From Cellulomonas sp. URHD0024 (GTDB lineage Bacteria > Actinomycetota > Actinomycetes > Actinomycetales > Cellulomonadaceae): a stretch of 64,000 bases of DNA. Shown one piece after another: positions 414-5,616 of this stretch. A program made the translations under genes and the position numbers. Numbering within the stretch: the stretch's first letter is position 1; the number at the start of each line of letters is the position of its first letter. The notes beneath the pieces are model-generated. The model was not told the DNA's origin. It saw only the letters and a program-made list of their open reading frames with translations, and did no database searches. The DNA is taken from assembly GCF_000426185.1 (NCBI RefSeq), contig NZ_AUEW01000008.1:186001-250000 (forward strand), written 5' to 3'.

Positions 414-1220
414 GTGATGACGGACCCGTCCGCCCGCCACGTCGTCGTCGTCGGCTCCGGGTTCGGCGGGTCTGTCGCGGCGCTGCGGCTCTCGGAGAAG
501 GGCTACCGCGTCACGGTCGTCGAGGCGGGCCGTCGGTTCACACCCGAGACGCTCCCGCGCACCTCGTGGGACGTGCGCCGGTTCCTGTGGGCGCCGCGTC
601 TGGGGTGCCACGGCATCCAGCGCATCCACGTCCTGCCGGACGTCGTCCTGCTCGCCGGTGCCGGAGTGGGCGGCGGCTCGCTGGTGTACGCGAACACCCT
701 CTACGAGCCGCGCTCGGACGAGTTCTACCGTGACCCGCAGTGGGCGTCCGTCACCGACTGGCGCAGCGAGCTCGCGCCGCACTACGACCAGGCCCGCCGC
801 ATGCTCGGCGTCGTCGAGAACCCCACCGTGACACCCGCCGACGAGGTCGTCCGGGCCGCCGCCCGGGATCTCGGCGTCGAGGGCACGTACCGCCAGGCCC
901 CCGTCGCCGTCGTGTTCGGCGCACCGGGCGAGCCGGTACCCGACCCGTTCTTCGGCGGGGTCGGCCCAGAGCGCCGCGGCTGCCTGGAGTGCGGGGAGTG
1001 CATGACCGGCTGCCGGCACGGGGCGAAGAACACGTTGGAGACGAACTACCTGTGGCTCGCCGAGCGCGCCGGCGCGTCGGTCGTCCCGGACACGACCGTC
1101 GCCTCACTCGTCCCCCGGCTCGACGGGCGCTGGGACGTCGTCACCGTCCCGGCCGGCCGTCGCCGACCGCGCACGACCCTGCTGGCCGACGAGGTGGTCG
1201 TCGCGGCCGGGGCCTGGGGC
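414..1220 (+). pseudogene. GMC (cholesterol-oxidase-like) oxidoreductase, N-terminal half, disrupted
   Basis: N-terminal 269 codons of an FAD-dependent GMC oxidoreductase. The FAD-binding Rossmann motif VVVVGSGFGGSVAALRLSEK lies near residues 10-30, GGGSLVYANTLY near 85-97 is a typical FAD/substrate-domain segment, and there is a Cys cluster (GCLECGECMTGC). The frame runs to AAGAWG and then stops at 1224-1226 after two non-homologous codons, because about 3.5 kb of foreign DNA is inserted. The rest of the enzyme resumes in the same frame at 4717. Start is GTG at 414 (or ATG at 417). The separated half lacks the catalytic C-terminus and is presumably inactive. Confidence 0.9.
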
Positions 1221-1336
1221 GCATGATCGCCTTGTCGGAAGACGAGGTGCTCGCGGGCACCACGCACCCGGTCCGAAGGGGTCGTCCGTGAGCATGTCGC
1301 GGACCCGCTCTAGCTTCGTCGGACCACGATCAGCGC

Positions 1337-1430
1337 GCGGGTCGCGTTGGGCAGGACGCGCCCAGGGTGGCGGAACGCCCGAGCACCGGTCGGTGTCTAC
1401 TACGTACGGACCCCAGTGGCGCTGGAAATC
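1337..1430 (-). pseudogene. Degenerate fragment of a second DNase-toxin gene
   Basis: About 94 bp aligns to 3029-3121 inside the intact toxin gene, with 8 substitutions and one 1-bp insertion (about 90% identity by hand alignment), in the same orientation. It encodes the same HWGPYVVDTDRCS stretch and then shifts frame. It lies just beyond the immunity gene stop, where polymorphic-toxin loci commonly keep remnants of displaced toxin cassettes. It has no start codon or signal peptide of its own, and the corrected frame stops soon after the homology ends. Confidence 0.8.
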
Positions 1431-1457
1431 CTCCCCTGTCGGCAGGGTCCGGGCCCG

Positions 1458-2042
1458 CTAGGAGTAGAGCCGGAACTCGGGGCGTGTGGGCTCTTCCATG
1501 TCCCAGGCCTGGCGCGCGGCGTCCCACCAGACGTAGCGCTGTTCGAGTGCCCGCAGCCAGGTCGTCACGACCTCGGCGAGGGAGCGTTCCGCGGTGTTCA
1601 TCGTGTCGTCGTCGAACATGTCGATGATTCCCACCTGAGCGCGCTCTGTTGTCGAGTCGTCGAGCAGGACTGCGAGGCGGGTGTGAGCTCCGAGTCCTGC
1701 GATCGGGAGCCATGTCGGGTCCCAGGGCATTTCACTGCCGGAGGGCCACAGCTCCATCCATCGGGCGCGATCGGCGAGGGCTTCGTCGAGCGACAGGAGA
1801 GTCCAGCCGCCAGGACCGATGGTTGCTCCGAGGTAGCGCCCCTGCACGAGCCGGGAGCCGTTGTGCCAACGCCACCACTCGAGCAGCTCGGTGGGCGGTG
1901 TGGACAGGCCGGCGTCGGCCAGTGCGGCGGTGACCTCGTCCTCGTCGATTCCGGGGTTGGCCATCTCCAGGAACGGGGCCCCAGTTGCGACCAGAGCGGC
2001 GTCGAGCTCGGCCAGCAGGGCAGTGAGCGGGGTGGTGTGCAT
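1458..2042 (-). CDS. SUKH (SMI1/KNR4) family immunity protein
   Basis: A 194-residue cytoplasmic protein with the SUKH core: TPPTELLEWWRWHNGSRLV matches the conserved [LP]P..[LY]..[WL]..WHNG signature, and LPIAGLG and VGIIDMFDD correspond to later strands. SUKH proteins are immunity factors for many bacterial nuclease toxins. The gene starts at ATG 2042, three bases after the toxin stop, with a GAAGG Shine-Dalgarno inside the toxin end (a TTG at 2048 is an alternative), so the two are translationally coupled. It presumably binds and neutralises the DNase of the preceding gene. Family assignment is firm; the cognate pairing is inferred from position. Confidence 0.88.
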   Translation of the reverse strand: MHTTPLTALLAELDAALVATGAPFLEMANPGIDEDEVTAALADAGLSTPPTELLEWWRWHNGSRLVQGRYLGATIGPGGWTLLSLDEALADRARWMELWPSGSEMPWDPTWLPIAGLGAHTRLAVLLDDSTTERAQVGIIDMFDDDTMNTAERSLAEVVTTWLRALEQRYVWWDAARQAWDMEEPTRPEFRLYS

Positions 2043-2044
2043 CC

Positions 2045-4345
2045 TCAAACCTTCGGGCAGACGAAGAACGACGGCACGTTAACCTCGACGAGCGGGATGG
2101 TCAGGTATTTCTTGCCGCCCGTGCCCGGGTTGCCGACCGCCGACTGCGCCTTCAGACCACAAGCTGTTGTGTTGACCATGCTGCGGAGGGCGTTTCCTTC
2201 AGCCTGGTTGTCGTTGTAGGAGATCGGCTTGAGGACGGCCGGGCCATAGGTGTTGAACGCTGATGGGCCGCCTTCGACACTCGTGAAGAACGGGTACTCG
2301 TCGCACTCCTGGAGGCCCGACGTCTTCTCCTCGCAGGGTTTGTTGTACGCCGCGAGGTTGTACCAGTAACGCTGTGCGCCGGTGGCGCGCTTGTTGGCGG
2401 TGGACATGTACTCGAGCTGGACGAGTTGCGGGTGTGCGGCGATGACTTCCAGGTCATGCTCTGCTGCTTCTTTGCCGAAGTCGGTGCGGCCGCCGACGAA
2501 CAGGATGGGCTGGTCGGCGCATTGGGCTTGTGCTTGGGCGCGGGTCGTGGCTGCGGAGGCGACTTGGAGTAGGGCTGTGCACTGGTTGGCTGCGGTCTTG
2601 AGTGGTTCGGGTTCGGGATCCTCTTGAGGGCCGGGCCCGAATAGATGGTCTTCGAAGATGTTGTCGTCCAGGCACACGCCGCTGCTGCTGATCTGGTCGC
2701 AGTCGGGTGTGAAGGTCGGGGGCTTGGGTGCTTGGCCGGCTGCCTCGGCCAACGTGGCGACAGCGATCGCCGGGCCCTGGGCGCCACCGGTGTCGGAGAT
2801 GAACTGCAGCGCGCGCGGCAGGTCGAAGTCGGCGCAGATGTACACGACGTCCGGGACCGCCAGAGGAGCGGGCCCGCGATCGAGGCGCACCTGCTCGCCC
2901 AGTGCTTTGCAGGCGGCGTCGGTGTCGTTGTCGTAGCGCTGCTCGAGCCGTGAGCGCAGGGTTGCCACGACGTCGCTGTCGAGTTCGAGAACTGGCCACG
3001 GGATGTAGTGGGTCAGCCCGTCGTCGCCGCGGGTCGCGTTGGGCAGGACGCGCCCAGGGTCACGGAACGCCGAGCACCGGTCCGTGTCCACCACGTACGG
3101 ACCCCAGTGGCACTCGAAGTCGTTGCCGCGATCGGGGTCGAGGTACCAGTCCGGGCACGCGACTGCGAGCGATCCGCAGGTGGCGGCCGGGGACGGGTTG
3201 GCCTTGAAGAGCTGTAGCCGGCAGTCGGCGTTCAGGCAGTCTGGGTACTCCGTCGGAATCGACGTGACCCACGCCGGTGTCGGCGTCGGCGGGAAGATCG
3301 CCTGAGCCGAACCGCCCGAAGGGGTCCAGTCGACACCGCCGCTGCCGGCCACCGTACGCGGCGGGCACAGCAGCGACGGGACCTCGAACTGCCCACCGTG
3401 CGAGATATCGGCATCGAACGTGTCCGTGACGTCGATCGAATAGCCGGCCGCGCCCACGCAGTGCACCTTGCGCGTTACGACACCGAGCCCCGGCGGCGGG
3501 GGATCGACGTACGTCGGCGCACCATCCGGCACCCACACGGTGTAGATCCCTGTGTCGCGGATCTGCTCGACCATGTGCGCGGCGTTGGCGCGGTCCCAGG
3601 GGATGGATTCGGAGTCGGGGAAACTGGCGCCGTAGATCAGCGCACTGGCGATCGTTCCCTCAGGGCAGGAGCCAGCGGGGAAGGTCTGCGGCACGACCCC
3701 GCTGAGCACTGGCGGGTGTCCGGGGTGGGTGTTCCAGTTCGCGCCGCCGTTAGCGCCTGTACGGACCCATCCGCCAAAATGGCCAGCGGGGTCTTGGCAC
3801 AGGACGGACCCGTACATGCCCACCGAACCGAAGCTCGCCGCAGGGACTGGACCAACCTCCCAGGCCCACTGGGTGCTGAACGAGACCCAGGAGCGGTCAC
3901 CCCACGCGAACGGGTCGACGCTCGGCTCGTCCACGATGATGCGGTCAGTCGAGCCGGGGAAGTACGACGTGGGCCACGTCGGGTGCTGCAGGAGCAGGGG
4001 CGACCAGCCGGTGAACTCCGACCCCTGGTCGAGTCCCGTGGCGCCCCCGTCCTGGACCGTGAACCACCCGGCCGTCCACCCGTAGATGCCGATTGTCGCC
4101 ACAGCCGTGCTGGCCGCGAGCGTGCCCAAGCTGATGCCGGCGACACCAGGCGCCGCCACCGACGTCGTCGCCACCGCGCCGGCGGTTTCGTCGCCCAGGG
4201 CGTCGAGCTGGGCCTCGACCACCAGGCCATTCGGCGAGGACAGTGAGCCTGGACCGGCCTGCGCTGGCCCCGCGACAGCGGATAGAGCGAAAAGAGCTGC
4301 GACGAGGACGAGCCCAATCGCGCGACCGGTGTTTGACAAGCGCAT
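2045..4345 (-). CDS. Secreted polymorphic toxin with C-terminal NucA/NucB-type DNase domain
   Basis: A 766-residue protein with a Sec signal peptide (residues 1-30, cleavage near AQA-GPG), a long extracellular region with paired cysteines of no family I recognise, and a C-terminal nuclease domain from about residue 640. The hallmark is CDEYPFFTSVEGG (D682, E683), the conserved Asp-Glu centre of NucA/NucB non-specific DNases, followed by a second conserved block around SYNDNQAEGNALRSM. Export plus an overlapping SUKH gene marks it as an interbacterial toxin rather than a nutritional nuclease. It lies inside the insertion, and its mid-section (3029-3121) recurs as a fragment beyond the immunity gene. 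The target cell and entry route cannot be seen. Confidence 0.85.
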   Translation of the reverse strand: MRLSNTGRAIGLVLVAALFALSAVAGPAQAGPGSLSSPNGLVVEAQLDALGDETAGAVATTSVAAPGVAGISLGTLAASTAVATIGIYGWTAGWFTVQDGGATGLDQGSEFTGWSPLLLQHPTWPTSYFPGSTDRIIVDEPSVDPFAWGDRSWVSFSTQWAWEVGPVPAASFGSVGMYGSVLCQDPAGHFGGWVRTGANGGANWNTHPGHPPVLSGVVPQTFPAGSCPEGTIASALIYGASFPDSESIPWDRANAAHMVEQIRDTGIYTVWVPDGAPTYVDPPPPGLGVVTRKVHCVGAAGYSIDVTDTFDADISHGGQFEVPSLLCPPRTVAGSGGVDWTPSGGSAQAIFPPTPTPAWVTSIPTEYPDCLNADCRLQLFKANPSPAATCGSLAVACPDWYLDPDRGNDFECHWGPYVVDTDRCSAFRDPGRVLPNATRGDDGLTHYIPWPVLELDSDVVATLRSRLEQRYDNDTDAACKALGEQVRLDRGPAPLAVPDVVYICADFDLPRALQFISDTGGAQGPAIAVATLAEAAGQAPKPPTFTPDCDQISSSGVCLDDNIFEDHLFGPGPQEDPEPEPLKTAANQCTALLQVASAATTRAQAQAQCADQPILFVGGRTDFGKEAAEHDLEVIAAHPQLVQLEYMSTANKRATGAQRYWYNLAAYNKPCEEKTSGLQECDEYPFFTSVEGGPSAFNTYGPAVLKPISYNDNQAEGNALRSMVNTTACGLKAQSAVGNPGTGGKKYLTIPLVEVNVPSFFVCPKV

Positions 4346-4711
4346 CGCGCGGCCCCCTTTTGTACTCCAAGTGGGGCGGGGCAGAACCTAGCGCTGCGGT
4401 GAGCGGCGCGTCGGCATTCCTTCGCACATTCACTCTCTTGAGCGCGAACCATCCGCACTCGGGCAAGGCGGAGCAAGGCATGAGTCCTGCCGGCGTCTGC
4501 ACGTGGGGCGTGGGACGTTCGCCGGCTGCGTTCCAGCGGCCAACCTGCCTTCGCCGAAAAGTGGGGAGGGGACCCAGGTACGGTCGCCCACTGGATGCTA
4601 CGGTTCAAGCGCGCCGGTTGCTGACAAATGAGGCCATTTTGTCATAATCGCCATTATCGGTAGTCAAACCAGTGCGAGCGGTTACGCAGGTCAAGGCGAC
4701 TTTCGCCGCAG
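4346..4711. other. Upstream region of the toxin gene and right end of the insertion
   Basis: A 366-bp non-coding stretch between the toxin start and the GMC junction. It holds any toxin promoter (I see no convincing -35/-10 pair) and, near its right end, an AT-rich patch conspicuous in this GC-rich DNA. That patch contains an inverted repeat and a dif-like site, annotated separately. Confidence 0.6.
4637..4664 (-). other. dif-like Xer recombination site with adjoining inverted repeat
   Basis: The 28 bp have Xer-site architecture: 11-bp arm TTTTGTCATAA, 6-bp centre TCGCCA, 11-bp arm TTATCGGTAGT, giving the ATAA-N6-TTAT inner palindrome typical of dif. On the minus strand it reads CCGATAAT, a 4-bp gap, then ATTATGACAAAA, very like what I recall of the actinobacterial dif consensus. 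It overlaps an imperfect inverted repeat at 4622-4644 (TGACAAATG and CATTTTGTCA). It sits 47 bp inside the right end of the toxin insertion. It could be the chromosomal dif, a plasmid-type site brought in with the element, or a chance AT-rich palindrome. Confidence 0.5.
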
Positions 4712-4716
4712 GGGGC

Positions 4717-5616
4717 ACGCAGGAGCTGCTGCACCGGCTGAAGGCCGACGGCACGCTGCCGCACCTGTCCGACCGGCTCGGGCACCTCACGCGCACGAAC
4801 TCCGAGGCGCTCGGCGGCGCGGTGCGGCGGCCGCGAGCGCCCGGGCCGCGCGTGAACAGCGGCGTGGCGATCACCTCGTCCGTCTGGCTCGACGAGCGCA
4901 CCCACCTCGAGCCGGTCCGGTACGGGCACGGGTCCAACCTCATGGGCCTGCTGGGCACGGTCCTCACCGACGGGGGTGGGCGGGTGCCCCGCTGGGTCCG
5001 GTGGCTCGCGCAGGTGGCCCGGCACCCCCGGCACGCACTGTCGGTGGTCACGGCGCTGCGGTCCTTCTCCGACCGTGCCGTCATCGGCCTCGTCATGCAG
5101 ACCGGCGGAGCGTCGCTCACCGTGCGTCCCCGTCGGACCTGGACGCGGCGGTGGCGGCTGACGTCGACGCGCGGCGACGAGCCGAACCCCACGTGGATCC
5201 CGGCGGCGAACGCCGCGTACCGGCGGATGGCCCACCACCTGGACGGCTTCCCGATGAGCAGCCTCGGGGAGGTCGTCGACGTGCCCATGACGGCCCACTT
5301 CCTCGGCGGCTGCACGATCGGCACGGACGCCTCGACCGGCGTGATCGACCCGTACCACCGGGTCTTCGGCTATCGCGGCCTGCACATCATGGACGGGTCG
5401 ACGATCTCTGCGAACCTCGGGGTCAACCCCTCGCTGACCATCACCGCCCAGGCCGAGCGCGCGTGCTCGATGTGGCCGAACGTGGGTGAGGCCGACCCCC
5501 GTCCAGCGGCCGGCGAGCCCTACCGGCGCCTCGCCCCGGTCCGGCCGCACGAGCCCGCGGTCCCGGCCCACGCCCGGGCGGCGCTTCCACTGACGGTGCT
5601 GCGCCGGACGACCTGA
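4717..5616 (+). pseudogene. GMC (cholesterol-oxidase-like) oxidoreductase, C-terminal half, disrupted
   Basis: In-frame continuation of the 414-1220 fragment: TQELLHRLKADGTLPHLSDR follows AAGAWG exactly as in intact GMC enzymes. Visible features are the substrate-domain segment HGSNLMGLLGTVL and the C-terminal catalytic block HFLGGCTIGTD...NPSLTITAQAERA, including the conserved His region and NPSLT FAD-domain signature. 299 codons plus stop. The frame is open back to 4672 but those codons belong to the insertion. Without a start or FAD-binding N-terminus it is unlikely to yield active enzyme, although the sequence shows no other decay, so the disruption looks recent. Confidence 0.9.

Follow-up and report, generated by a model that had tools for sequence, protein, structure and literature searches.

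The locus described here raises the question of how a complete toxin-immunity locus can come to lie inside an unrelated gene when no recognizable transposase or recombinase gene travels with it. The interrupted gene encodes a GMC oxidoreductase of Cellulomonas sp. URHD0024 and was analyzed within a window of 64,000 nucleotides (the whole stretch of DNA under study; contig C6, positions 186001–250000, of the host assembly G000, a draft of 4.47 Mb in 23 contigs). Positions given without a contig refer to this window. The gene is split by a segment of 3,491 bp that carries a polymorphic toxin gene with a NucA/NucB nuclease tip, a SUKH immunity gene and, close to its right edge, a second copy of the chromosomal site dif followed by DNA resembling the flank of the native dif. 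The explanation that we favor, with modest confidence, is that a toxin-immunity locus formerly residing beside dif was captured at a staggered break in the GMC gene.

A Precise Insertion into the GMC Oxidoreductase Gene

The GMC oxidoreductase gene is broken after position 1220 and resumes at the right-hand copy of the pentamer GGGGC. Joining the flanks without positions 1221–4716 yielded an open frame of 568 codons with zero internal stops (the junction reads VVVAAGAWGTQELLHRLKADG), which bears out the claim of an initial annotation, made from the letters alone, that both halves are intact and in the same frame; Pfam assigned the two halves to GMC_oxred_N (E 5e-13) and GMC_oxred_C (E 8e-13). 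The same annotation had described an insertion bounded by GGGGC and extending over 1221–4716. The GGGGC-bounded insertion stands, but its coordinates do not, as the last five of these bases are the right-hand GGGGC itself and the insert ends at 4711 (Table 1). The duplication is exactly 5 bp long, the adjoining bases on either side differing between the two copies, and two random 5-mers drawn from the window are identical with a frequency of 0.0023.

Uninterrupted GMC genes, which the initial annotation had proposed to seek in related genomes, were searched for with the 5′ half of the gene as a query against 58 genomes (own genome included) at a cut-off of E ≤ 1e-40. Matches were obtained in 23 genomes, i.e., the own genome and 22 others (61–90% identity), with open and stop-free frames, while 35 of the 58 gave no match at this cut-off and no second copy was found in the own genome at the same threshold. 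The gene runs continuously through the site in all 22 other genomes, and 20 of them read TGGGG(C/T/G)AC at this point. Because the two halves of the interrupted gene carry no stops, the insertion looks like a recent event.

A Second dif Site and Native-Type Flank DNA near the Right Junction

What the initial annotation missed is that the insert ends, on the right, in a dif site and DNA of a dif flank, the dif core lying about 50 bp inside the junction. The underlying dyad, TGWCATAA-N6-TTATCGG, is present in 66 of the 81 genomes of the genus, once in 63 and twice in three (G000, G028 and G450), and a reversed control of the motif gave none in the same scan. In the own genome, exactly two sites match TGTCATAA-N6-TTATCGG without mismatch (the native site on contig C1 and the site in the insert), with zero further matches at one or two mismatches and ten at three. 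Chromosomes normally have a single dif, located at the terminus; the dif of the insert is a second copy. It consists of two 11-bp arms around a 6-bp center and agrees with the motif at 15 of 15 fixed core bases (4640–4660). Read as its reverse complement, the dyad equals the core of the dif suggested for Frankia alni, CACGCCGATAATGCACATTATGTCAAGT, in a paper stating, in the passage concerned, that no actinobacterial dif has been confirmed by experiment (PMC3025954). The two own sites have the same arm on the tail side, ACTACCGATAA, whose outer bases are unlike those of F. alni. Before the genus-wide scan identified it as dif, the dyad had been read as a resolvase site and later, given that the shared DNA of four tyrosine-recombinase elements (see below) starts at it, as the core sequence at the end of such an element.

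The copy on C1 can be regarded as the native dif because its region (L075) is collinear on both sides with the dif region of genome G005, at 75–86% identity over blocks of 0.4–2.7 kb. The right end of the insert (4560–4715) has a single relative among 396 genomes of the order, and this relative lies in the own genome at C1:445418-445471; the exact right-end pattern gave 0 matches in a wider genome-contig collection. The last 51 bp of the insert (the tail) align with the native dif flank with a score of 48, which was reached by none of 2,000 shuffles (maximum 33) and by none of 5,000 genomic stretches (maximum 43), the best score of the tail among 67 other dif flanks of the genus being 29. Beyond the dif arm on the toxin side, the insert no longer resembles the native locus. 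Thus, since the tail matches the native flank and the toxin side does not continue the homology past the arm, the insert has the layout toxin locus, dif, native-type dif flank.

The dif inside the insert is very probably ectopic, as judged by the distance of the GMC gene from dif in relatives. A GMC match and the dif motif occur together in five single-contig genomes of the genus (lengths exact for G006 and rounded for the other four), and in four of them (G006, G011, G021 and G033, with GMC identities of 80–85%) the distance by the shorter way is about 1.4–1.8 Mb; in G014, the remaining one, the GMC match lies 83 kb from dif and is a homologue of 65% identity that may be a paralogue. In the own draft, the GMC gene and the native dif are on different contigs. 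The central hexamer reads TCGCCA in the insert versus TGTGCA at the native site, a difference at 3 of 6 bases. Mismatched dif centers hinder recombination, and the second dif may be tolerated through its differing hexamer, which would perhaps allow the two sites to coexist. The central region is where strand cutting and exchange occur, according to the relevant passage of PMC5357621.

Several side observations concern these sites. An imperfect palindrome, TGACAAATG-AGG-CCATTTTGTCA, at 4622–4644 overlaps the toxin-side arm of the insert dif and is absent at the native dif. The native dif lies in an island of gene fragments (L075:7300-12400; own C1:443300-448400) that is absent from the G005 dif region and holds a recombinase-element gene piece, unknown ORFs (open reading frames) and a broken transposase that we take to be IS481-like. 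The other two genomes of the genus with a second dif motif are G028 (L166:5710 = G028:C1:1689710) and G450 (L125:7652 = G450:C27:7632); in G028, a TrwC relaxase gene lies about 4–9 kb from this motif, and an integrative element may carry the site.

Recombinase Elements Abutting dif in the Genus

Close to C1:445418-445471, a large gene is represented by a fragment; the full-length relatives of this gene are found within elements of 3.15 kb that encode a tyrosine recombinase (Phage_integrase, E 1.4e-19). The shared DNA of these elements begins at the same dif dyad in four relatives (Table 1), and these four may represent a family, not yet described, that targets dif with a recombinase of its own. 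In addition to the recombinase gene, they contain an ORF of ~100 aa resembling helix-turn-helix proteins and an ORF of ~500–530 aa (the one examined gave no hit in Pfam). Near the end of the homology in two of the elements, at L090:8375-8424 and L092:8770-8819, lies an imperfect palindrome rich in G+C (CAGGCCAGGGCGC..GCGCCCGCTGCTGCGGCAGCCTGG), which is perhaps their other end. A further piece of the third gene of these elements is found at G000:C1:1114510-1114710 (L088), near the end of C1.

The Toxin-Immunity Cargo

The cargo had been described as a NucA/NucB-type toxin with SUKH immunity, and both assignments were recovered by Pfam (Table 1). The toxin can be classified as a polymorphic toxin of the trunk-plus-tip type because its trunk is common to proteins with a different C-terminal nuclease: residues 1–560 align at 36–37% identity with the database proteins P0002 and P0003, both of which end in AHH and not in NucA, and a further trunk homologue (32%) is present at a locus of genome G010. 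The tip is followed by the immunity gene, and the two are neighbors in all three loci in which the tip was found, namely the window, G054 (61% and 64% identity) and G053 (41% and 34%); in G054 the tip is carried by a short ORF without the trunk. The G054 locus also provides the longest partial match to the insert (873 bp at 68%, spanning tip and SUKH gene). Among 297 genomes of the order, the toxin protein was represented only by its own copy and one partial trunk match at 34%, and none of 11 pattern matches in the wider genome-contig collection was confirmed. The description of the toxin as secreted, given in the initial annotation, is based on its N-terminus, which looks, by eye, like a signal peptide. 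Judged by its family, the toxin would be exported, its C-terminal nuclease would hit competitors and the SUKH protein would protect kin.

The left edge of the insert falls beyond the immunity gene, just past a decayed, frameshifted piece of a second toxin trunk. Directly inside this edge, at 1223–1288, there is a 22-codon ORF (MIALSEDEVLAG..) that may resemble the N-terminal part of proteins related to aminoglycoside phosphotransferases, in which case this edge, too, would consist of a gene fragment. Locus L049 shares a 42-base match with the left edge but was dropped, as it holds no match to the toxin.

Table 1. Features of the interrupted GMC gene and its insert (window positions), and the related elements of the genus
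Feature	Position	Strand	Basis or remark
GMC oxidoreductase gene, 5′ part	414..1220	+	includes left GGGGC; ORF itself called 414-1226
Left target-duplication copy, GGGGC	1216..1220		5 bp
Inserted segment	1221..4711		3,491 bp; G+C 67% vs. 75% in GMC halves
Decayed toxin trunk piece with frameshift, residues about 407-439	1336..1430	-	second-cassette remnant
SUKH (SMI1/KNR4) immunity protein, 196 aa	1458..2048	-	SMI1_KNR4/SUKH, E 6.6e-6 (Pfam)
Toxin ORF, 766 aa	2045-4345	-	NucA/NucB, E 1.6e-7 (Pfam)
Toxin C-terminal tip, residues 561-766 + stop	2045..2665	-	NucA/NucB DNase domain at 653-725
Toxin trunk, residues 1-560	2666..4345	-	common to proteins ending in AHH nuclease
Ectopic dif (very probably), 28 bp	4637..4664	+	core TGTCATAA-TCGCCA-TTATCGG at 4640-4660
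Tail, 51 bp homologous to native dif flank of own genome	4661..4711	+	alignment
Right target-duplication copy, GGGGC	4712..4716		5 bp
GMC oxidoreductase gene, 3′ part	4717..5616	+	ORF and Pfam evidence, flank joining
dif-abutting 3.15-kb elements	L089:5635-8786, L090:4679-7832, L091:4621-7777, L092:5072-8227

Origin of the Insert

The presence of a dif site together with dif-flank DNA at the right edge points to an origin at the chromosome-dimer-resolution locus. We consider it moderately probable that the insert is a relocated dif-side toxin-immunity locus captured at a staggered break in the GMC gene. According to this explanation, a polymorphic toxin-immunity locus (trunk, NucA/NucB tip and SUKH gene) would have lain beside the chromosomal dif in a related bacterium or an ancestor, and would have moved as a single 3.49-kb segment, carrying dif and 51 bp of its flank, into the GMC gene, where entry at a break with a 5-nt stagger would have left GGGGC on both sides. 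Instead of transposition, the joining may have been an unprogrammed capture, e.g., one in which a linear fragment entering the cell was ligated by Ku-dependent end joining. Such end joining is possible given the Ku gene present in the own genome (as a control, the Ku search gave a match in 1 of 14 named genomes); the literature on end joining consisted of only general papers among the matches listed. The toxin locus would formerly have resided at dif, the site that four recombinase elements of the genus abut. The decayed second-cassette remnant makes the insert look like a piece cut from a larger locus.

Four observations weigh against a capture of this kind: (i) a clean 5-bp duplication without loss of target sequence is the usual mark of transposition; (ii) the tail resembles the native flank right up to the junction, and the G005 flank, whose similarity to the native one is weaker, also ceases to match it there, at CGCCGC, both as a real element terminus would; (iii) tail and native flank match at only about 80%, so that the native locus of the own genome was not the direct source; and (iv) the search for a donor in which the toxin adjoins dif found none, the tip-bearing loci L074 (14 kb) and L076 (8.3 kb, truncated where its contig ends) having no dif within two mismatches and other dif neighborhoods not having been searched for domains.

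The first two of these observations also favor a non-autonomous transposon whose ends are fixed at 1221 and 4711 and whose mobilization depends on a transposase acting in trans and producing duplications of 5 bp. A toxin module moving as a self-contained, non-autonomous element had indeed been suggested by the initial annotation, of which the precise insertion with a short target duplication is retained, as is the lack of a transposase or recombinase gene (none was recognized among the ORFs of the insert, by inspection of the ORF list and by Pfam run only on the two main ORFs). The self-contained element itself is not supported. As regards terminal inverted repeats, the best ungapped matches of 20–38 bases between the ends were equaled by 45–49% of random pairs, i.e., were at chance level. 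The proposed search for the insert at other genomic sites disclosed no second copy of it in the own genome or in 97 relatives, the right end was not found in the 395 other genomes of the order, and the left edge adjoins the decayed toxin remnant. Thus, of the features of a DDE-type transposon, the locus displays the short target duplication (GGGGC on both sides, with an intact empty site in 22 homologous genes), but neither terminal inverted repeats nor other copies with the same ends. A gapped 22-base inverted match between the ends (score 22; 4 of 200 shuffles reach 22, maximum 26) was rejected, being out of register with the junctions while the ungapped test was at chance. A transposase may have acted in trans, but overall we regard the non-autonomous transposon as unlikely.

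Somewhat less likely again is an origin of the IMEX type, in which a circle had been integrated at dif by XerCD and the GMC insert is a mis-integrated or truncated copy keeping one dif. The position of dif at the boundary between the toxin side and the native-type flank would agree with this proposal, as would the four recombinase-bearing elements abutting dif in the genus and the dif-flanked effector-immunity clusters described for Neisseria subflava in the relevant part of PMC10210955. However, IMEX and dif modules integrate at dif and have a dif-like site at both ends, whereas the window contains only one dif within two mismatches, neither junction is at dif and the GMC target is unlike dif.

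It appears improbable that the insert is a toxin-immunity element using the host dif as its own resolution site, such that it would generate the 5-bp duplication, XerCD would resolve its intermediates and the drifted hexamer would block recombination with the native dif. No higher do we rate a replicative toxin-carrying transposon in which dif and the host XerCD serve as the resolution system: the dif core does lie near an end of the segment, and a 5-bp duplication is present, but inverted repeats, a transposase and other copies were not found in the searches described above, and the literature on XerCD cointegrate resolution, the Tn3 family and dif-like sites gave only Acinetobacter dif modules among the matches listed. 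Finally, an assembly artifact fusing two parts of the genome, conceivable in a draft of 23 contigs, is very improbable in view of both junctions lying within one 269.5-kb contig, the exact 5-bp duplication and the absence of any loss of target sequence.

Relation to Known Systems and Significance

A side-by-side comparison with known systems, as far as the passages of the cited papers extend, reveals partial likeness to each of them. Tox-NucA with Imm-SUKH is listed among polymorphic toxin systems (PMC3482391), with which the present locus shares the trunk with an exchangeable C-terminal toxin, the NucA-type DNase tip, the adjoining SUKH gene and the downstream cassette remnant, although here the pair travels with dif inside an unrelated gene. 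As in IMEX (PMC5357621), a dif-like site joins cargo to a native-type dif flank, but the present segment lies away from dif, has one dif only and is bounded by a 5-bp duplication in the GMC gene. The dif-flanked vgrG effector-immunity clusters of Neisseria subflava (PMC10210955) likewise combine antibacterial toxin-immunity genes with dif, one cluster having a single dif at one end; these are, however, type VI systems of a proteobacterium, and relocation into an unrelated gene is not described in the passages of that paper covered here. Chromosomal dif modules are known from Acinetobacter (PMC12907356), and the plasmid dif modules of this genus with toxin-antitoxin genes (PMC13141974) are similar in being small toxin-carrying units without a recombinase gene that are linked to Xer sites, but they have pdif on both sides, in contrast to the one dif and the non-dif junctions observed here. 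The composite transposon of Burkholderia thailandensis carrying contact-dependent inhibition (CDI) genes (PMC6350997) shows that a mobile unit can carry polymorphic toxin genes; at about 210 kb, and bounded by insertion sequences with a transposase, it differs from the present insert, which has none of these. No report of a polymorphic toxin locus moved with dif into an unrelated gene was found among the literature matches listed.

Toxin-immunity genes pass constantly between competing bacteria, while relocation of whole toxin-immunity loci without a transposase is, to our knowledge, seldom seen. The toxin-immunity pair itself is ordinary; what is unusual is its passenger, a second dif with a native-type flank, known from this one case. 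The present locus displays the two sides of what looks like a recent move, namely an intact empty site in relatives and dif-locus DNA at the edge of the cargo. Overall, dif may be a staging post for toxin-immunity loci, and a natural ectopic dif with a changed center offers a test case for the tolerance of a second dif in a bacterial chromosome.

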